From: Tabrizicola sp. TH137
GTDB taxonomy: Bacteria > Pseudomonadota > Alphaproteobacteria > Rhodobacterales > Rhodobacteraceae
Direction: 5' to 3'
Length of the DNA: 64,000 nucleotides
Assembly (NCBI RefSeq): GCF_002855575.1
Contig: NZ_PKRQ01000003.1
Span: 372,001-436,000, forward strand
Part shown: piece by piece, positions 44,840 to 54,805 of the stretch
Numbering within the stretch: the first letter of the stretch is position 1
Layout of the letters: the number at the start of each line of letters is the position of its first letter
Notes under the pieces: model-generated
The model's database searches: none
What the model was told of the DNA's origin: nothing
What the model saw: only the letters and a program-made list of their open reading frames with translations
Position numbers and translations under genes: made by a program

Positions 44840-45625
44840 ATGCTGAACCTGATCCATCACCCCGCCGCCGAAACCGCCGAGAAGCCGCCCCTCGTCATCG
44901 CCCATGGCCTCTTCGGATCGGGCCGCAACTGGGGTGTGATCGCCCGCCGCCTTGCCGACCGCCGCGCGGTCTTCGCCGTGGACATGCGCAATCACGGCGA
45001 CAGCCCCCGCGCAGCGTCCCACCGCTATCCCGACCTCGCCGCCGACCTGGCCGAGGTGATCCGCCATATCGGCGCGCCCGCCGATCTTCTGGGCCATTCC
45101 ATGGGTGGCAAGGCCGCAATGCAGCTTGCCCTGACCCAGCCCGACCTCGTCCGCCGCCTCGTCGTCGCCGACATCGCCCCGGTCGCCTATACGCATGACC
45201 AGACCCGCCATATCGACGCGATGCGCGCACTCGATCTGGCCGATCTCACCTCACGGGCCGAAGCAGACCGCCGCCTCGCCGCCACGGTCGAAGACCCGGC
45301 GCTGCGGGCATTCTTCCTGCAATCGCTGGACCTCAAGGCCGAAGGCGGGCCGCGCTGGCGGCTCAATCTCGATGTGCTGGAGGCCGAGATGCCCCATATC
45401 GTCGGCTGGCCCGGCACAACGGGCCAGTTCGACCGCCCCACCCTCTTCCTGACCGGCGCGCAAAGCCATTACGTGCGGCCCGAACACCGCGACAGGATCC
45501 GCGCCCATTTCCCCGCCGCCCGCTTTGCCCGCATCCCCGATGCGGGCCACTGGCTTCATGCCGAAAAGCCCCGCGAATTCGAGGAAACGGTGCGCGTCTT
45601 CCTCGACGCGCCCGATCGGGCCTGA
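44840..45625 (+). CDS. alpha/beta hydrolase (YbfF-like esterase)
   Basis: A 261-residue hydrolase with the oxyanion motif AHGLFGSGRNWG (about 21-32), DMRNHGDSPR, the nucleophile elbow GHSMGGKAA (Ser about 94), an Asp in the C-terminal half and the catalytic His in IPDAGHWLHAEKP. This matches YbfF-type acyl-thioesterase/esterases. The start at 44840 is chosen for the family-like N-terminus; GGA lies 6 nt upstream. Convergent with the che operon, 11 bp apart. Confidence 0.85.
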   Translation: MLNLIHHPAAETAEKPPLVIAHGLFGSGRNWGVIARRLADRRAVFAVDMRNHGDSPRAASHRYPDLAADLAEVIRHIGAPADLLGHSMGGKAAMQLALTQPDLVRRLVVADIAPVAYTHDQTRHIDAMRALDLADLTSRAEADRRLAATVEDPALRAFFLQSLDLKAEGGPRWRLNLDVLEAEMPHIVGWPGTTGQFDRPTLFLTGAQSHYVRPEHRDRIRAHFPAARFARIPDAGHWLHAEKPREFEETVRVFLDAPDRA

Positions 45626-45636
45626 CGCGGCACAGC

Positions 45637-47358
45637 TCAGAACAGGATGTCGTCCAGCGTTTCCTCCGCCACGGCCTCCTGCGGCGCCACCACGGGGGCA
45701 AGGCCTGCCCCGATCACCCCGTCATGGATCGCCCGCTCCGCCTGCATCGTATAGCGGGCCCGCTGGCGGGCCAGAACCTCGGCCTCATGCGTGCCTTCGA
45801 CCATGGGCAGCACCGGATCGGCCAGCATCATCCGCCGCAGCAGAAGGCTGCTTTCCAGCTTCGCCAGATCATCCAGCGCCCGCCGGAAGGTCTCCAGCCG
45901 CTCCGCCGCCTGACCCAGCTTGAGGGGCAGCGCCTTGCCGCCCGCATCGAAGCCGCGCGCCGTGTCGCTGACAACCCGGTCGATCTGGCCCATCGCCTCG
46001 TTCAGCGCCTCGGCATCGCCGATGAATCCCGACAGCGCCCCTTCCAGACGGTCCACCCCGGCCTGACCGGCCTCGCGGGTGCGGTTTCGCGTCTCGGCCA
46101 GATTGCCCTGCAACCGCTGCACGATGGCATCGCTCTCATCGGTCAAGGTCCGCAGCCATTGCGCCAATTCCCGCAGCGACCGCCCCTCCTCGCCCAGCTT
46201 GGCGCAGATCAGCACGGCGTTCAGCCCCGACAGACGCACCTGCTGCGCGATCTGCCGGATCGTCGCCTCGTGCTTCAGGATCAGGTCCAGCCGCCCGCGC
46301 AACTCTTCCGCCCTTGCGCGCATCACCGAAAGGTTCCGCCGCACCCGCGCCAGACTGGCCGACAGCGCCTCGGCATCCCCCGACGTGCCATCCGCCGCCG
46401 TTCCTGCGCCATTGCGCCCGGCCTTGGCGAAGTAAAAGCTCCGCGCCGCCTGCATCGCCTGCTCGGCGCTCGACCGCACCGCCGCAAGTGCCGTGACCGA
46501 CACGCCGACCTCGGACTCCGCATCCTCCCGCGCCGCCGCCGAAAGCGCCCGCGCCAGATCGACCAGCACCGCCTCCAGCCCCGATCCGGGCACCATGGAC
46601 GCCTCGGCCAGCACCTCGCGCACCCGATCCAGCCGCTGCCGCGTGCTGTCGCCGGTCTGCAAGGCCATGATCATCCGCGACACTTCCGAAAAGACGGTGC
46701 GCATCCGCGTCGCCAGATCGGCACTCATCCGCGTCATCTCGGCCCGGCCATCCTGCACCGATTGCGCGATGGCGGCAAAGCGCGTCAGCCGCGGCAGGAC
46801 ATGCAGCATCAGTTCCTGCCGCAATTCCTGCAACGAGGCTTCCATCGCCCCGGTGTCATGCCCGATCCCCACCATCGCATCCTTCACCTCGGTCAGGATG
46901 CTTTCGGCCTCCGAGGCCATCACCGCCAGCCGCTCGATGAAGGAATTCACCTGCGGCCGCGGCGGCACCAGCCCGTTGCCCTGGATGCGCGCATTGATCG
47001 ACACGTTGGAAATGGTCCGCACCACGCGGTCCAGTTCGTTCACCTCCACCCGCACGCTGCGCACCGCGCCGCGCAGCGCCTCGGCATCGCGGCTGAACAT
47101 GTCGAAATCGGCCCGGATCACCTCCACATTGGCAAAGGTCTCCTCGATCAGCGAGGCAAGCTGCGCGCTCGTCTCATCGCCCAGCGTCACGTCCAGACGG
47201 GCGAAAAGCTGCTCGGTCCCGCGCAGGATCTCCACGGCCCCCGAAAGGGCATCGCCCGCCTGGACGAAGGTCTCCTCGCTGATCCGCAGCACCCCTTCCA
47301 GAGGGTCGGCCAGCGGCTGGCGCAGCTTCGGGGTCGGGATGGGGGTCGCGATCGTCAT
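45637..47358 (-). CDS. che-operon soluble coiled-coil protein with two MCP-tip-like hairpins
   Basis: A 573-residue protein, no membrane helix, mostly predicted long helices. Two stretches resemble the MCP signalling hairpin tip: about 111-152 (VVRTISNVSINARIQGNG, FIERLAVMASE) and about 363-410 (IRQIAQQVRLSGLNAVLICA, GEEGRSLRELAQWLR), which parallels IAxQTNLLALNAAIEAARAGExGRGF but has lost several CheA-contact residues. Between them IMALQTGDSTRQRLDRV (229-245 region) resembles a helix of other chemotaxis helpers. The C-terminus TLDDILF recalls CheY-binding tails such as the CheZ end. The ATG overlaps the cheB stop (ATGA). Role unproven; CheY phosphatase or an adaptor are candidates. Confidence 0.7.
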   Translation of the reverse strand: MTIATPIPTPKLRQPLADPLEGVLRISEETFVQAGDALSGAVEILRGTEQLFARLDVTLGDETSAQLASLIEETFANVEVIRADFDMFSRDAEALRGAVRSVRVEVNELDRVVRTISNVSINARIQGNGLVPPRPQVNSFIERLAVMASEAESILTEVKDAMVGIGHDTGAMEASLQELRQELMLHVLPRLTRFAAIAQSVQDGRAEMTRMSADLATRMRTVFSEVSRMIMALQTGDSTRQRLDRVREVLAEASMVPGSGLEAVLVDLARALSAAAREDAESEVGVSVTALAAVRSSAEQAMQAARSFYFAKAGRNGAGTAADGTSGDAEALSASLARVRRNLSVMRARAEELRGRLDLILKHEATIRQIAQQVRLSGLNAVLICAKLGEEGRSLRELAQWLRTLTDESDAIVQRLQGNLAETRNRTREAGQAGVDRLEGALSGFIGDAEALNEAMGQIDRVVSDTARGFDAGGKALPLKLGQAAERLETFRRALDDLAKLESSLLLRRMMLADPVLPMVEGTHEAEVLARQRARYTMQAERAIHDGVIGAGLAPVVAPQEAVAEETLDDILF

Positions 47359-48467
47359 GCCTGCACTCCTGCCCTGTGGCGGCGGGCGAAATTCATGATC
47401 GCAGCCGCCATCTTGTCGAGGGGCAGGGTCTGCCCCGCACTGCCCATCCGCACCGCCTCGCGCGGCATTCCGTAAACCACCGAACTCGCCTCGTCCTGCG
47501 CGATGGTCGTGCATCCGGCCGCCTTCATCTCGCCCAGGCAGCGCGCTCCGTCATCGCCCATCCCCGTCAGGATGACGCCCAGGGCATTGGCCCCCGCCGC
47601 TCCAGCCGCCGACCGGAACAGCACATCGACCGAGGGGCGGTGACGGCTGACATAGGGCCCCTGCACGACCGACACGCGATACCCGCCCGTCAACCGGCGC
47701 AGCACCATATGCTGGTCGCCCGGTGCAATCAGCACCTCGCCCTGTCCGACCGAGGCACCATCCACCGCTTCCGAAACCTTCACCTTGCACAGCCCGTCCA
47801 GCCGCCGCGCGAAAGCGGCGGTGAAACCGGCGGGCATGTGCTGGACGATGCAGATCGCCGGCGCATCCGGCGGCAAGGCCACCAGCACCTGCCGCAGCGC
47901 CTCGGTCCCCCCGGTCGAGGCGCCGATACAGACGATGGGCTCCGTCGTCGGCACCGGGCGCGAAAGGTTCGGCGGCGGCAGGATCTCGTCCGCCGTCAGC
48001 TTCGGCCCCGGCGCCCGCAGCGCTCCGGGCAGCAGGCCCGCGCGTCCGCCCCGCGTCTGCGCCGCCGCACGCAGCGCATCGCAGATGCGCACCTGCGCCT
48101 CGGCCCGCGCCCGTTCATCCCCGGCCGAAGGCTTCAGGATCACGTCCACCGCGCCCGCCTCCAGCGCCGCGATGCTCTGGTCCGACCCGCGCGCCGTCAG
48201 CCCCGAACAGATCACCACCGGCAGCGGCTTCTGCGCCATGATCTTCTTCAGGAAGGTCATCCCGTCCATGCCCGGCAGTTCCAGGTCCAGCAGGATCACG
48301 TCAGGCAGCCCGTCGCGCATCACCTTGGCCGCCTCGAAGGCATCAATGCACATGGCCATCACCGAAAGCCCCGGATCGCTTTCGACGATCGCCCGCAGCA
48401 TCGCCCGCGCCGACGCGCTGTCGTCCACGATAAGGACCTTAGCCGTTTCCGATGATTTCAGGGGCAT
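47355..48467 (-). CDS. cheB: chemotaxis protein-glutamate methylesterase
   Basis: A 370-residue protein. The receiver domain spans about 8-125, with acidic pair Asp15/16 and phospho-acceptor Asp61 in VILLDLELPGMDG. A linker follows, then the methylesterase domain from about 178 with the catalytic Ser in IGASTGGTEAL, His in VQHMPAGF and Asp in TGMGDDGA. It demethylates or deamidates receptor glutamates. Start at 48467 is 1 bp after the cheR stop region; it overlaps the next gene by 4 bp. Confidence 0.95.
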   Translation of the reverse strand: MPLKSSETAKVLIVDDSASARAMLRAIVESDPGLSVMAMCIDAFEAAKVMRDGLPDVILLDLELPGMDGMTFLKKIMAQKPLPVVICSGLTARGSDQSIAALEAGAVDVILKPSAGDERARAEAQVRICDALRAAAQTRGGRAGLLPGALRAPGPKLTADEILPPPNLSRPVPTTEPIVCIGASTGGTEALRQVLVALPPDAPAICIVQHMPAGFTAAFARRLDGLCKVKVSEAVDGASVGQGEVLIAPGDQHMVLRRLTGGYRVSVVQGPYVSRHRPSVDVLFRSAAGAAGANALGVILTGMGDDGARCLGEMKAAGCTTIAQDEASSVVYGMPREAVRMGSAGQTLPLDKMAAAIMNFARRHRAGVQA

Positions 48468-48468
48468 G

Positions 48469-49308
48469 TCACACCTTCTTGAAAATCGTGGGGCGGACCT
48501 GCCGCAGCATGGGGTGCCGCACCACCATGCTTTCGGCATGACCGACGATCAGGTAACCACCGGGCAGCAGATGCCCGGTCAGCCGGTCCACCACCCCCTC
48601 CTTGTCCGCCTGATCGAAATAGATCAGGATGTTGCGCAGCATCACCACATCGACATCGCGATCGACAGGATACCGCTTGTCCATCAGGTTCAGGTGGCGG
48701 AACCGCACATTGCGGCGCAGCTCCGGCACCACCCGCGACTTTCCCGCGACACTGGGATCGTCCGACGTCAGGAAATACCGCCGCTGCAAGGCCTGCGGCA
48801 CCGTGGTCAACTGATCATTGGCATAGATCGCCGCCTGCGCCCGCTCCACCATCCGCTGGCTCAGATCGGTGCCGAGGATCGCCCAGTCGCAGCCCTTCCC
48901 GGCCCGCCGCGCCTCTTCCAGCACCATCGCCGCCGTATAGGCCTCCGCCCCTTCCGACGCCGCCGCCGACCACAGCTTGAACCGCGCGGACGCACCGGCC
49001 CGGACCTGCGCCATCTTCTCGGCCAGGACCACATCGGTCAGGAAGGTGAAATGCTCCGCCTCGCGGAAAAAGCTCGTAGTATTGGTGGTGATCAGGTCGA
49101 TGACCTGTCCCAGCTCGTCCTTGGGCAGCGCCCCGGCAAGAAGCTGCGACAGATAGGCTTCCGTATCCGGCAAGCCGAAGGCCACGACGCGACGCCGCAA
49201 CCGCTGGTCGATCATCTGCACCTTGTGCGGGGGCAGGCTGATCCCCGTGATCGACCGGATCAGGTCGCGAAACCGGTCGCTGGCCTGTTGAACATTCTCA
49301 CTCAGCAT
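48469..49308 (-). CDS. cheR: chemotaxis protein methyltransferase
   Basis: A 279-residue SAM-dependent enzyme methylating receptor glutamates. N-terminal helical domain with DQRLRRRVVAFGL; TTNTTSFFRE marks the CheR substrate region; the SAM site includes LWSAAASEGAEAYT, where the usual CSSGEEPYS is altered to AASEGAEAY. VVMLRNILIYFD and LLPGGYLIVGHAES complete the fold. It sits 1 bp before cheB. Confidence 0.94.
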   Translation of the reverse strand: MLSENVQQASDRFRDLIRSITGISLPPHKVQMIDQRLRRRVVAFGLPDTEAYLSQLLAGALPKDELGQVIDLITTNTTSFFREAEHFTFLTDVVLAEKMAQVRAGASARFKLWSAAASEGAEAYTAAMVLEEARRAGKGCDWAILGTDLSQRMVERAQAAIYANDQLTTVPQALQRRYFLTSDDPSVAGKSRVVPELRRNVRFRHLNLMDKRYPVDRDVDVVMLRNILIYFDQADKEGVVDRLTGHLLPGGYLIVGHAESMVVRHPMLRQVRPTIFKKV

Positions 49309-49398: not shown

Positions 49399-49899
49399 TC
49401 AGGCCGCCACGCTGTCCAGTTCGGCGCGGGTGCCCCCGCCCGCCGCGGCCACGATGTCGGGCTTGGCAAACAGCCGGTCCAGATCAAGCACGCTCACCAC
49501 CGCACCGCGGCAGCGCGCGATGCCGGCCACCGCGCTGCCTGTCCAGCGCAGCAGTTCCGCCTCCGCCAGCGGCTTCAGCTCCGGCTCGTCCAGGGCCGTC
49601 ACCTCGATCACCCGGTCGGTCTTGATGCCCAGGACGATCTGCACGCCCTCATGGGCGACCTGCACCACAAGGATACGGCTCTGCGCCGTATCCTCGGTGT
49701 CCGGGCGCCCCAGCAGGCGGCGCAGGTCCACCACCGGGACATTGGCCCCCCTCAGGTCGATCACCCCCAGAAGATAGGCCGGGGTGCTCGGCAGCGGGGC
49801 CACCGGGCGCAGGTCCAGAATTTCCTGCACCCGACCGACAGGCACCGCATACAGCGCCTCATCGGCAACGAAGGTAACGACAGTCGCGCTCTCGCTCAT
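49399..49899 (-). CDS. cheW: chemotaxis coupling protein CheW
   Basis: A 166-residue SH3-like coupling protein linking receptors to CheA. Family pattern: YAVPVGRVQEIL, STPAYLLGVIDLRGANVPVV and GIKTDRVIEV. It lies 9 bp upstream of the MCP gene end; one of two CheW in this operon. Confidence 0.92.
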   Translation of the reverse strand: MSESATVVTFVADEALYAVPVGRVQEILDLRPVAPLPSTPAYLLGVIDLRGANVPVVDLRRLLGRPDTEDTAQSRILVVQVAHEGVQIVLGIKTDRVIEVTALDEPELKPLAEAELLRWTGSAVAGIARCRGAVVSVLDLDRLFAKPDIVAAAGGGTRAELDSVAA

Positions 49900-49908
49900 C
49901 TTCCCTCC

Positions 49909-51573
49909 TCAGGCCGCATCGCGGCGCTTGAATCTAGCATCCAGATCATCGGCCGACTCATGGCCCAGATCGAAATCGAACCCACCCTCGACCGGTGCCG
50001 CCGCCTTGGCCCGTGCCGCAGGCCGCGCCTCGACAGGGGCCTTGGCCGTCACCGCGCTGCGCCCGGCCTCTTCGCCCGTGCGGAAGAACGCGATCGCCTC
50101 GGCCAGCATCTCGGCCTGGCTCGCCAACTCCGTCGCGCTGGACGACAGCTCTTCCGAGGCCGAGGTGTTCTCCTGCGTGACCTTGTCGAGCTGCTGGATC
50201 GACAGGCTGATCTGCGACGAACCGGTCGCCAGTTCGCGCGAGGCGGTGGAAATCTCGGTCACCAGCGCCGAGGTCTTCTCGATGTCCGGCACCAGTCCCT
50301 GAAGCATTTCGCCCGCGCTGGCCGCCGTGCGCACCGTGCTGGCCGACAGGGACGAGATTTCCGCCGCCGCCGTCTGGCTGCGTTCGGCCAGCTTGCGCAC
50401 CTCGGCCGCCACCACCGCGAAGCCGCGGCCGTGCTCGCCCGCCCGCGCCGCTTCCACCGCCGCATTCAGCGCCAGAAGGTCGGTCTGCCGCGCGATTTCC
50501 TGCACGATCATGATCCGGTCCGCGATGGTCTGCATCGCCTGCACGGCTTCCGCCACGGCCTTGCCGCTGGCCCGCGCATCCTCGGCCGACTTCACCGCCA
50601 TCTTCTCGGTGATGGTCGCATTCTCGGCGCTCTGCTTGATGTTCGCCGCCATCTGCTCCACCGCCGACGACGCCTCTTCGGTGGACGAAGCCTGCTCCGT
50701 CGCGCCCTGGCTCAGTTCCTGCGAGGTCGAGGCCATCTGCGTGGACCCCGACGCCACATTGCGCGCCGACTGGTTCACGCGGGCCACGACGTCGCGCAGC
50801 TTCACCACCATCTCGTTCTGCGCCTTCAGCAGATCGGCAATCTCGTCATTGCTGCGCAGGTCCGCCGTCTTGCGCAGATCGCCCTCGGCAATCGACGACG
50901 CCAGTTCGACCGACTCTTTCAACCCGCGCGACAGCCCGCGCATGATCCAGAACGCCGCCGCCGCAGACACGACGGCAGACGCCGCGAACAGCGCGATCAT
51001 CACGGTCCGGGCCGAAGCATATTCCGCATTCGTCAGGTCCTCGTTCTCCGTCGCAATGCCGCGGATGATCGTCCGCAACTCGCCCAGAACGCGGACGATG
51101 TTGTCCCCGATCACGTCCAGGTCCTTGTGATAGAGCGTGTTGGCCTGATCGCCATTGCCCGCCAGCTCAAGGGCGATGATCTCCTTGTTCATCGCATAGG
51201 CGGCCTTGTGCAGCGCCTCGAACTCGTCGATCTTGGCGAAGATGTCCTCGCGGGTCGTCTGCGACCGCAGATCGGCAATCAGTTCATCCACCCGCGCCGC
51301 CCCGGCATCCACCGCCGCGACCAGATCCGGAATATGGTTCGGCGGCGCATCCGGCAGCCCGATCAGAACCAGCCCCACATTCTGCCGCACCATGAGCTTT
51401 TCCGTCACAATGTCCTCGACCTCAAGCAACCGCGTGATGTCGCGGTTCACCGTCTCGGCGTAGCGGTCATTCGCACCGCCCAGATACATGACGGCCATAC
51501 CCGTCGATGCGCCCCAAAGCGCAAAGACAAGGGCGAAGGTCGCCGCCAGCTTGGTCTTGATCGTCAGTCTCAT
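49909..51573 (-). CDS. methyl-accepting chemotaxis protein
   Basis: A 554-residue receptor. N-terminal helix about 10-32, a four-helix-type periplasmic domain (about 33-190), a second helix about 192-212, HAMP (about 213-265) and the signalling domain with the conserved tip [20 protein letters not shown] and [18 protein letters not shown]. The linker after the signalling helix ends in [19 protein letters not shown] followed by KRRDAA. The ligand is unknown. Encoded between two cheW genes. Confidence 0.93.
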
Positions 51574-51595: not shown

Positions 51596-52075
51596 TTAGG
51601 CCATTGGCCTCTGTGCCAATGCGGAAAGGATCTGGTCGAGGTCGGGCATCAGCACGAACCCCGCCCCTCCCCTGTAAAGCCCGGTCAGGTATTCCGGCGG
51701 CCAGGCGCTGGCCGTCGCCGGAACGGGTTCGATGATCGCGGTCTCGATGGTGGCCACCTCATGCACCGCATCGGCCTCCATCGCGACGACCGCAGGCTCG
51801 CCCGCAATCGTCACATCCAGCACCAGGATGCGGCGGCGGTCATCCGCCTCGGTCTCGGGAATGCGCAGCACCTGCTTGAGGTTGGCCAGCGGCACAACCG
51901 TCCCCCGCACGTTCAGCACGGCCGGCACCAGAGGCCCCGCCCCCGGCACCCGCGTCACCGGCATCGGGTCCAGGATCTCGCGAAGCCGCACGGCCGGGAT
52001 GGCCAGCACCTGCTTGCCCAGGGACAGCGTCACCAGCGTGATCTGCCGGTCTTCCTTCAGATGATGGATCGTCAT
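51596..52075 (-). CDS. cheW: chemotaxis coupling protein CheW (second copy)
   Basis: A 159-residue CheW with [20 protein letters not shown] and [18 protein letters not shown]. Sequence differs widely from the other CheW of the operon, so it is not a recent duplicate. Its ATG overlaps the cheA stop (52072-52075). Confidence 0.92.
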
Positions 52076-54120
52076 GCCAGAACCTCCTGCCGCGCCGCCT
52101 GCGGCGCCTCACCCTGCTGCCGCGACATCCCCACGAGGTGCCCCACGTCGAGGATCAGCGCGATGGACCCGTTGCCCAGAAGCGTCGCCCCCGACAGGGC
52201 GCGCACCCCGGAATGCAGCTTCGACATCTGCTTGATCACCGTCTGGTTGGTGCCGATGATCCGGTCCACCACGATGCCCACCCGCGCGTCGCCCGCGCGC
52301 ACGATCACCACATTCTGCCCCGGCCCCGGTTCGCCCGCGCAGTCGAACAACTGGCGCAGCCGCAGGAAGGGCACGAACCCGCCGCGCACATCGAGGAAAT
52401 CCTCGGTCCGGCTCGGCTCCACCTTCTCGGGCGGCAGTTCCACGATCTCCTGCACGTTCGGCATGGGCAGGATGTACTGCTCGCCCGCCACTTCGATCTG
52501 AAGCCCTTCGATGATGGCCAGCGTCAGCGGCAGGCGCAGCGTGACCGTGGTCCCGCGTCCCAGCGCGCTGTCGATCTGGATCGTCCCGCGCAGCGCGTCG
52601 ATGGTCCGGCGCACCACATCCATCCCCACGCCGCGCCCCGACAAGTCGGTCACGGCCTCGGCGGTGGAAAAGCCCGGCTCGAAGATCAGCGCGAAGATCT
52701 GCGCCTCGGTCATCTGCGCCTCGGGCGTGATGATCCCCTTGGCAATCGCCTTCTCGCGCAGCTTCGCAGGGTCCATCCCCTTGCCGTCGTCGCGCACCTT
52801 GATCAGGACCTCGGCCCCCGCATGTTCGGCGACCAGTTCCACCAGACCTTCGCGCGGCTTGCCCGCCGCGACGCGCGCATCGGGCAGTTCCATCCCGTGA
52901 TCCAGCGCGTTGCGCAGCACATGGACCAGAGGATCGGCCAGCTTCTCGATCACCGTCTTGTCAAGTTCGGTATCCTCGCCGGTCACCCGGAATTCCACCG
53001 GCTTGCCCAGCTTGTCCGACAGGTCGAGCACAAGGCGACGGAACCGCCCGACCAGAGACCGCATCGGCACCATGCGCATCGTCATCGTCGCATCGCGCAG
53101 GCCACCCGCCAGACGGGTGATCTGCTCCGCCGTGGCGATCAGCGCCGGGTCGCGCAGGTCGCGCGCCAATTGCGTCAGCCGCGCCTCCGCCGTCACCAGT
53201 TCGCCCACCGCATCCATCAGCGCATCCAGCCGCTCGGCCGGAACCCGGATCGTCGCACCCGCGTCGGACTTCGCGTCCGACTTGGTCTCGACCTTCGCCT
53301 CGACCTTCACCTCCGGCTTCACCACGGCACCCGCCGCAACCGGAGCCGCCTTGGCCGCCGCCACCGGCGCGGCCTCGGCAACCGCCGGGGCCGCCTCCGT
53401 CGCGGCGCCTTCCAGCGACCATTCGGCATCGACGAAGAGGAACACTTCCTCCACCTGCGCCGCCGTCACCGAGGCGGGCAGCACCATCTTCCAGCCGATC
53501 GCGCAGGCTTCCACATCCAGCCGGTCCAGCGGCGGCACATCGGCCAGATCGGCCTCGACCGCCACCGCGCCCAGACCGCGCAATTCGTCCAGCACGATCT
53601 CGGGCCGTGCGCCCATCGCCAGCGCCGCGCCACTCAGCCGGAAGCTCAGCCGCATCACACCCTCGCCGGCCGCAACCGCCTCGCCCGCATCCGCCTCGCC
53701 GGCACCCGCCTCGGCCGGGGCCGCAGCGACCTCGGCCTCCGCCGCGACCGGCCCGCCGCCCAGCAGGCCCTGCAAGCCCGACAGGATGGCCACACGCCGC
53801 CCCTCGGGATCGGCCTCGCCCTCCACCAGGCCGGGGATCTCGTCCTTCGCCGCCAGCGCAAGGCGCAGAAGTTCGGGACCAATCGCCAGATTGCCCGAAC
53901 GGACCTGATCGAAGACCGTCTCGAACTCATGGATGAAGGCGGCCAGTTCGGAGAAACCGAACATCGCGCCGCTGCCCTTCACCGTATGCAGATCGCGAAA
54001 GACCTGGTTGACCAGCCCCATATCCTCGGGCCGCGATTTCAGGTCCAGAAGCCCGCGTTCCAGGCTCTCCAGAAGATCACGCACTTCCTCGCGGAAGATC
54101 GCCGTCATGTCATCCATCAT
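52072..54120 (-). CDS. cheA: chemotaxis histidine kinase
   Basis: A 682-residue kinase. The HPt domain (1-110) has phosphorylated His45 in FRDLHTVKGSGAMFGF. A second region (about 150-235) and an Ala-rich linker precede the dimerisation/ATPase core: N box VHVLRNALDHG, G1 DDGKGMD, G2 LSGRGVGMDVV. A C-terminal CheW-like regulatory domain has QYILPMPNVQEIV and RGGFVPFLRL. The ATG overlaps the cheY stop by one base (TGATG). Confidence 0.96.
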   Translation of the reverse strand: MMDDMTAIFREEVRDLLESLERGLLDLKSRPEDMGLVNQVFRDLHTVKGSGAMFGFSELAAFIHEFETVFDQVRSGNLAIGPELLRLALAAKDEIPGLVEGEADPEGRRVAILSGLQGLLGGGPVAAEAEVAAAPAEAGAGEADAGEAVAAGEGVMRLSFRLSGAALAMGARPEIVLDELRGLGAVAVEADLADVPPLDRLDVEACAIGWKMVLPASVTAAQVEEVFLFVDAEWSLEGAATEAAPAVAEAAPVAAAKAAPVAAGAVVKPEVKVEAKVETKSDAKSDAGATIRVPAERLDALMDAVGELVTAEARLTQLARDLRDPALIATAEQITRLAGGLRDATMTMRMVPMRSLVGRFRRLVLDLSDKLGKPVEFRVTGEDTELDKTVIEKLADPLVHVLRNALDHGMELPDARVAAGKPREGLVELVAEHAGAEVLIKVRDDGKGMDPAKLREKAIAKGIITPEAQMTEAQIFALIFEPGFSTAEAVTDLSGRGVGMDVVRRTIDALRGTIQIDSALGRGTTVTLRLPLTLAIIEGLQIEVAGEQYILPMPNVQEIVELPPEKVEPSRTEDFLDVRGGFVPFLRLRQLFDCAGEPGPGQNVVIVRAGDARVGIVVDRIIGTNQTVIKQMSKLHSGVRALSGATLLGNGSIALILDVGHLVGMSRQQGEAPQAARQEVLA

Positions 54121-54485
54121 CAGCCCAGAACCTTCTTGATAACAGCCAAAAGCTTGTCCTGCGTGAAAGGCTTCACCATCCAGCCCAGCGCCCCGGCATC
54201 GCGCGCCTGCGCCTTGAGGTCTTCGGCAGAGTCAGTCGAAAGCACCACGATCGGCACGCCCTTGCCCTGGGGGTGCTGCCGCAGCGCCCGGATGAACCCG
54301 AGCCCGTCAAGATTGGGCATGTTCTGGTCGGTGATGATGGCATCCATCGGCTGGGCCAGCGCCTTGTTCAGGCCGTCCTGTCCATCCACCGCCTCGACGA
54401 CATCATAGCCTGCCTCCTGCAAGGTCATCGCGATCATCCTGCGGATCGACGGCGAGTCATCGACGGTCAATACTGTCTTGGGCAT
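54120..54485 (-). CDS. cheY: chemotaxis response regulator CheY
   Basis: A 121-residue single-domain receiver with Asp9/Asp10, phospho-acceptor Asp53 in IITDQNMPNLDG, Thr/Ser in VLSTDSAED and Lys105 in MVKPFTQD. It is phosphorylated by the adjacent CheA and should bind the flagellar switch. Directly upstream of cheA. Confidence 0.95.
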   Translation of the reverse strand: MPKTVLTVDDSPSIRRMIAMTLQEAGYDVVEAVDGQDGLNKALAQPMDAIITDQNMPNLDGLGFIRALRQHPQGKGVPIVVLSTDSAEDLKAQARDAGALGWMVKPFTQDKLLAVIKKVLG

Positions 54486-54532: not shown

Positions 54533-54805
54533 TCAGGCCGAAAGGGCCTTGCCCATCGCCAGCCGGTCCAGCATCGCCGCCAGCACGCCATCCTCCGGCA
54601 TGTCGATCTGCAATTTCCGGTCCATCTGCGCCGCCGTCGCCCGCGCCGCCACAAGCACCTGGATGATCGAGGCATCCACCGCCGTCAGCCCGGCCGTCTT
54701 GATGCGAAGGCTTCCCTTCGCCAGCGCCGCCGCCAGCTCGTCGCGCAATTCGGCGGCTGCGCCTGCGCGCAGATCGCCGGACAGTTCCTTGCTCTTGATT
54801 GCCAT
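54533..54805 (-). CDS. STAS-domain protein at the head of the che operon
   Basis: A 90-residue protein with the SpoIIAA/STAS pattern: GDLRAGAAAELRDEL, LRIKTAGLTAVDASIIQVLV, with Ser46 in the position phosphorylated in anti-anti-sigma factors. It precedes cheY by 47 bp and is the first gene of the operon (ATG 54805). Role unknown, possibly a protein-interaction switch for the array. Confidence 0.8.
   Translation of the reverse strand: MAIKSKELSGDLRAGAAAELRDELAAALAKGSLRIKTAGLTAVDASIIQVLVAARATAAQMDRKLQIDMPEDGVLAAMLDRLAMGKALSA

Follow-up and report, generated by a model that had tools for sequence, protein, structure and literature searches.

A receptor-like protein that closes a chemotaxis operon in Tabrizicola sp. 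TH137 is a candidate CheY-P phosphatase

A che operon ending in gene X

The window, by which we mean the whole 64,000-nucleotide stretch of Tabrizicola sp. TH137 DNA analyzed here, carries a chemotaxis operon whose genes all lie on the minus strand, in the order (STAS-like by eye)-cheY-cheA-cheW-mcp-cheW-cheR-cheB-X (Table 1). The start ATG of the last gene, X, overlaps the stop codon of cheB as ATGA and is preceded by AGGAG, and the convergent gene downstream of X encodes an alpha/beta hydrolase according to Pfam. A promoter and terminator scan of positions 45400-47500 returned nothing. An earlier note on this DNA had described a soluble helical protein of 573 residues that ends the che operon and is ATGA-coupled to cheB; that description and its coordinates hold, with the gene on the minus strand. 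Pairwise dN/dS values for X (NG86) are 0.11 against L002, 0.33 against L004 and 0.45 against L007.

Table 1. Coordinates of gene X, its segments and the other genes of the operon within the window.
Feature	Position	Strand	Description
gene X	45637..47358 (including stop codon)	minus	573 aa, soluble, predicted all-helical; last gene of the che operon
C-terminal acidic-hydrophobic peptide LDDILF	45640..45657	minus	residues 568-573; candidate CheY-P docking peptide
variable linker	45658..45705	minus	residues 552-567; predicted mostly disordered
MCP-tip-like segment 2 (tip 2)	46129..46257	minus	residues 368-410; match to solved receptor, MCP scan, N380
candidate catalytic motif	46621..46662	minus	residues 233-246 (LQTGDSTRQRLDRV); D237 and Q241 at D-x3-Q spacing
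tip-like segment 1 (tip 1)	46954..47028	minus	residues 111-135 (RVVRTISNVSINARIQGNGLVPPRP); duplication partner of tip 2
cheB	47355..48467	minus	Pfam CheB_methylest and receiver; ATGA overlap with X
cheR	48469..49308	minus	Pfam CheR
cheW, second copy	49399..49899	minus	Pfam CheW
mcp	49909..51573	minus	Pfam 4HB_MCP_1, HAMP, MCPsignal
cheW, first copy	51596..52075	minus	Pfam CheW
cheA	52072..54120	minus	Pfam Hpt, H-kinase_dim, HATPase_c, CheW
cheY	54120..54485	minus	Pfam Response_reg; presumed substrate when phosphorylated
90-aa ORF	54533..54805	minus	STAS-like by eye only; probably first operon gene

X lacks any transmembrane-like stretch (its maximum KD19 is 1.11); we could find no methylation-site motif in it, and Pfam detects neither a sensor nor a HAMP domain. 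No Pfam family matched X above its cut-off; the best single-sequence match is a weak one to MCPsignal (E 0.0036; 17.6 bits against a cut-off of 34.6), and CheC and CheX are absent from the scan. Weak matches of X or its relatives to DUF948, Baculo_PEP_C and ATG17_like look like coiled-coil noise and were set aside.

A classical CheZ was absent from the window according to the earlier note, and this extends to the genome: CheZ, CheX and CheC all lack a match in the whole Tabrizicola sp. TH137 genome, for CheZ at the sensitivity of Pfam. Elsewhere the genome holds two other full-length cheA matches and one fliM, the latter on another contig. A further cheA-like frame with an in-frame TGA (G000:C33:361712-362902) lies about 10 kb from fliM. 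In its core che genes and additional cheW the operon resembles the F8-class clusters, of which excerpts of the literature describe Bradyrhizobium diazoefficiens che3, with core che genes, an additional cheW and several 34H receptors (PMC8429497); the R. leguminosarum che2 receptors are likewise given as 34H (PMC7617929). An X-like gene does not appear in the excerpted descriptions (PMC8429497, PMC7617929).

Relatives of X were found mostly in the window's own bacterial class, the Alphaproteobacteria. A whole-protein search of 41 genomes gave matches in 15, of which 14 (this genome included) are full-length and fall in one genus, and the fifteenth is weak and partial. Patterns derived from the tips recovered 22 loci from GTDB contigs, with titles including Rhodobacter, Gemmobacter, Paracoccus and Marivivens, which we take to be Rhodobacteraceae or close kin. 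A profile of residues 18-256, from which tip 2 is omitted, widened the search and matched 23 of 295 family genomes and 17 of 398 phylum genomes, this genome being counted in both; one match lies outside the class. Plasmids also carry members: we found 18 records and opened eight, which included seven alphaproteobacterial members. A literature search by titles and starts of abstracts in open-license PMC returned no paper naming the family.

Our final alignment contains 58 rows, many of them closely related; 34 were recruited by a profile that contains the D-x3-Q motif described below, and we cut the 34 distant rows back to the family start at their N-termini. We dropped two fragments that both retain D-x3-Q (L101 and L118, the latter with H in place of G236), the duplicates L123 and L124 (ORFs of L120 and L114), L085 (same place as L045) and L083 and L084 (equal to G000 and G002), L105 (no match to the family HMM), L052 (off the contig end or frame-broken, with D-x3-Q retained), L015 and L016 (weak partial matches around tip 2), and L031-L034, L036, L039, L042, L043, L046, L047 and L049 as repeat genomes.

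We fetched 52 neighborhoods of X, which represent 51 distinct places because L125 and L045 coincide. In 41 of the 52, X adjoins a full cheB frame in the same orientation. X lies on the strand opposite to cheB or the che cluster in four, and seven, including one contig end, hold no full cheB in the stretch; the coupling of X to cheB is therefore not obligatory. In two of these seven cheA and cheY are near X with no cheB in the stretch, in two more X belongs to another che cluster, beside mcp, and in a further two it stands beside a shortened cheB frame only. The X-type genes L129 and L131 are beside mcp and near cheA, cheW and cheR, with no full cheB in the stretch, and genome G241 holds both kinds of X-bearing che cluster. 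At L145 (G577:C70) and L143 (G166:C121), a full-length X frame adjoins a shortened cheB (234 and 150 aa, respectively) and no other che gene was found in the stretch; X may persist where the che cluster it belonged to has disappeared or been disrupted. Across the 295 family genomes searched, X is present in all 19 genomes with a CheA match of at least 570 bits and in one of the 11 other family genomes with CheA at E<=1e-130; three further genomes match the X profile without such a CheA match (one of these unconfirmed, one a fragment). Only a few candidates were scored per genome in these searches, so that the absences are soft.

Receptor-like tips and an internal duplication

Compared with solved structures, the family profile matches the chemoreceptor 2ch7 with an E-value of 2.6e-17, the best stretch covering profile positions 345-536; among the other matches listed, coiled coils of designed or viral origin get no further than 5e-8. 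A window scan of X against the MCPs of the operons peaks at tip 2 with a score of 44.7, compared to 28.6 or less for controls, and at E<=0.01 Pfam detects MCPsignal in 25 of the 58 members, the best match having an E-value of 8.1e-7. Within tip 2, N380 is invariant in all 58 rows. Tip 1 falls in the right register against MCPs with a score of 22.8, which is inside the control noise; its DRVVRT sequence is present in all 24 near-family rows and lost in distant members, where both tips are strongly diverged.

We compared the two halves of X with one another and found an offset of 258 residues as the top register at windows of 20, 30 and 40, with N122 falling on N380 and several separate windows sharing this offset. 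At window 40 this register scores 25.0, where the reversed profile reaches 20.8 and shuffles reach 15.5 +/- 1.2; the score at window 20 is marginal (14.0 versus 13.3 reversed). It is because of this duplication register that we retain tip 1 as a tip despite its noise-level score against MCPs. The earlier note had proposed two decayed mimics of the MCP signaling tip and a profile comparison to check them: the comparison bears out tip 2, through the 2ch7 match, and tip 1 stands on weaker ground, through the duplication, while “decayed” suits tip 1 better than tip 2 with its invariant N380.

X thus shares with the MCP signaling domain (PF00015) tip 2 and its helices, a hairpin unit that is duplicated in X at offset 258, and differs from it in having no sensor, HAMP, transmembrane segment or methylation motif, in its divergent tips, and in an additional D-x3-Q motif and tail. 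We infer that the two hairpins pack into one four-helix bundle, which would resemble a receptor dimer within one chain; work on single-chain receptors (PMC4692393) suggests that the one-chain idea is not absurd.

An AF2 model of X built from the 58 sequences is all helix, with a mean pLDDT of 86.7 and a pTM of 0.67. The model places residues 129-134 of tip 1 between two helices and shows a break at residue 233, which is followed by a predicted helix (residues 234-254) that carries D237 and Q241. The pLDDT drops below 50 at residues 552-562 and 564-567, followed by a short helix at 568-572. We searched both X models with Foldseek and obtained nothing at E<=0.001; the top matches are unrelated long-helix proteins and a few receptors, and no CheZ is among the best 50 matches listed for either model.

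An invariant D-x3-Q motif and a conserved C-terminal peptide

Only eight positions are invariant across the 58 aligned rows: L38, Q234, G236, D237, Q241, R242, N380 and R542. Five of these fall in a Q-G-D-Q-R motif, written L-Q-x-G-D-x-x-R-Q-R in X and not mentioned in the earlier note, and one (N380) is in a tip. D237 and Q241 are present in 58/58 aligned members, in 24/24 near-family rows, which had been recruited by whole-protein search or tip pattern and not selected by the motif, and in all seven of the alphaproteobacterial plasmid members opened. Their D-x3-Q spacing, a short motif, is common to X, CheZ and CheT. According to excerpts of PMC3035606, it is Gln147 of CheZ that orients the attacking water, while an acidic residue bonds the receiver lysine. 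For S. meliloti CheT, excerpts of PMC12654446 report a DXXXQ motif, a resemblance to CheZ by AlphaFold and the ability to dephosphorylate one CheY.

We compared X with 41 CheZ sequences, divided into set 1 (18 sequences: 15 of the same class and, as L076-L078, three from outside it) and set 2 (23 from outside the class); L019, L023 and L030 are in neither set. The pattern used to extract CheZ required D/E-x3-Q, and the presence of the motif in the CheZ and CheT profiles is partly imposed by selection patterns that demanded D-x3-Q; the scans therefore show where X fits best, and not that the motif is universal in the comparison sets. When all ungapped windows of X were scored against set 1, the D-x3-Q register ranked first at widths 10, 12, 15 and 20, out of 136,884-145,034 windows and with none of 100 column shuffles reaching it, and the best window at width 40 also lies on the motif diagonal. 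The score at width 15 is 18.4, barely above the 17.6 of the control CheA; as the two are nearly equal, the argument rests on where the window falls and not on the height of the score. Against the 23 outside-class CheZ sequences, the motif register ranks 33, 70, 45 and 22 at widths 10, 12, 15 and 20, and does not beat the shuffles.

Profile methods gave no support for calling X a CheZ, an assignment that we rejected. The earlier note had suggested a comparison with CheZ profiles, and none matched: Pfam CheZ detects 0/58 members at E<=0.005 and is missing from the results for X at E<=10, a level at which the HMMER filters drop most weak matches. When the 24-row family was compared by hhalign with each of the two CheZ sets, no significant match emerged (probability 0.3-2.6%); the top alignments are in other registers, and one second-ranked alignment has the motif in register. 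With no significant match by Pfam or hhalign, we do not file X under CheZ. The resemblance to CheZ (PF04344) is that most set 1 rows carry D-x-[TS]-x-Q-R-x at the position that is the best register of X, and that both proteins have a helical body, a linker and an acidic-hydrophobic C-terminal peptide; excerpts of PMC7750401 give the layout of CheZ as a helical hairpin, a linker and a C-terminal helix. X differs in being much longer, in its receptor-like tips, in its lack of a profile match, and in the residues before the aspartate, where A232-L-Q-T-G-D replaces the AxxFQD of CheZ and the A-x-x-F-Q element is absent.

For CheT, we relied on a CheT-like gene found after cheB-cheY in che operons of Rhizobiaceae-like genomes, named here by operon position and motif and not from a named record. 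In three copies the motif region is [LM]QGIDLAVQK and the last residues are GDFDFF; a fourth, divergent copy has VQRIDHTTQ and ends in GDLELFG. These first four were chosen among frames with D-x3-Q; a search of the class found CheT-like matches in four of 337 genomes, of which three were added and L217 (QDFDLMSQ), which missed the pattern, was left out. Against the seven CheT-like proteins, the D-x3-Q register of X ranks first at five widths and is reached by at most 1 of 200 shuffles; the control CheB scores above X at width 10 (14.6 versus 13.6) and below it at the other widths. The sequence [LMV]-Q-x2-D-x3-Q is common to X and CheT-like rows, with the exception of a single X row that has I in front of the Q, and tails of both mostly end in F.

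X and CheT thus share D-x3-Q with a Q three residues before the D, a terminal F in most rows, and a place in a che operon. They differ in that the CheT-like frames are 115-148 aa long without receptor hairpins, compared to 573 aa with two for X, in that no overall sequence match between them is shown, and in their operons: the small CheT gene follows cheB-cheY towards the end of the main (che1) operon, and X is beside cheB in another operon type. We found no alignment of CheT with CheZ in the motif register, and common descent of X, CheZ and CheT is accordingly not claimed. Three genomes of the window's own family encode small CheT-like proteins (L218, L219 and L220, in G126, G142 and G158) that carry Q-x-[VL]-D-x3-Q and end in LF; L220, one of the three added by the class search, has a tail that is not acidic.

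At the other end of the protein, a linker that varies in length and sequence in the 24-row alignment leads to the C-terminal peptide, in which L568, D570 and I571 are present in 24/24 near-family rows. The earlier note had read the C-terminus, TLDDILF, as CheY-binding-like and had proposed to examine its conservation; it is indeed conserved, 53 of the 58 rows ending in F, two in FG and two in FL, with L100 differing. In the scan against outside-class CheZ, the tail of X scores highest at widths 10, 12 and 20, equalled by 10, 28 and 8 of 100 shuffles, respectively; at width 20 the controls MCP (19.6) and CheA (22.1) score above X (14.8).

A candidate phosphatase and its alternatives

On balance, these sequence comparisons lead us to favor a model in which X is probably a CheY-P phosphatase built on a receptor-derived scaffold. 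The C-terminal peptide, on its flexible linker, would capture CheY-P; Gln241 would place a water molecule to attack the aspartyl phosphate, and Asp237 would pair with the active-site lysine of CheY. This would be chemistry of the CheZ/CheT type on a scaffold of two tandem chemoreceptor hairpins, with the catalytic pair in the first only. Through its tips, X probably sits at, or responds to, the CheA/CheW array of the same operon; this is the least supported step. CheY-P binding, catalysis and tip docking are thus all activities that we infer for X. The earlier note had set phosphatase, decoy receptor and array scaffold side by side; the first gains from D237-x3-Q241, conserved in 58/58 members and in the best register against CheZ set 1 and CheT, and of the checks that the note proposed, the one against CheZ profiles gave no match, but the similarity to MCP tips and the conservation of the C-terminus hold.

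More tentatively, it is possible that a receptor signaling domain was duplicated into one chain, as a built-in hairpin dimer, and turned into a CheY-P phosphatase whose tips plug into the CheA/CheW array, so that the array would be physically coupled to signal termination and perhaps gate it; CheZ, CheT and X would then reach D-x3-Q chemistry on different helical scaffolds.

X could instead be a divergent soluble chemoreceptor or an array scaffold, with tips that bind CheA/CheW and a motif and tail that serve only in structure or docking. The clear receptor relationship of tip 2, its invariant N380, the presence of two tips per chain and the MCPsignal matches in 25/58 members at E<=0.01 all fit such a role. 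We nonetheless consider it unlikely, as X has no sensor or HAMP match, transmembrane stretch or methylation motif, five of its eight invariant positions are in Q-G-D-Q-R and one in a tip, and the tips diverge in distant members. To our knowledge, a conserved acidic C-terminal peptide is also no usual feature of receptors.

We regard as improbable a role for X as a CheY-P trap or adaptor, in which the tail would hold CheY-P near the array without catalysis: the conserved acidic-hydrophobic tail, of the type seen in CheZ and most CheT-like rows, would suit it, but this role would explain neither the best-register matches nor why D237 and Q241 are strictly conserved with a catalytic spacing. Equally doubtful is an action on adaptation, by regulation of CheB or CheR or by dephosphorylation of the CheB receiver rather than CheY, for which the cheB overlap, the adjacency to cheB in 41/52 neighborhoods and a CheT-CheR complex reported in excerpts of PMC12654446 can be cited, and against which X is on the opposite strand in four neighborhoods and without a full cheB in seven.

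The phosphatase model bears on how CheY-P is switched off in chemotaxis systems without CheZ, CheC or CheX, none of which is matched in Tabrizicola sp. TH137. X provides a candidate phosphatase in a defined operon type, testable through two residues and a six-residue tail. The novelty would be CheY-P phosphatase chemistry on a receptor-derived scaffold, a variant of known chemistry. If the model is true, it would add a further CheY-P phosphatase scaffold, in which a receptor domain is reused as a signal-terminating enzyme, and would give a function to a family whose members on plasmids are labeled hypothetical protein, chemotaxis protein or “type VII secretion target”, or bear no label. The eighth plasmid record opened, from Vibrio, proved to be an ordinary receptor without the motif and was not counted as a member. 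A Methylosinus member on plasmid NZ_AP022335.1 (L223) adjoins cheB and has a less divergent tip, LNAKIEAAR, which is perhaps nearer the ancestral state.
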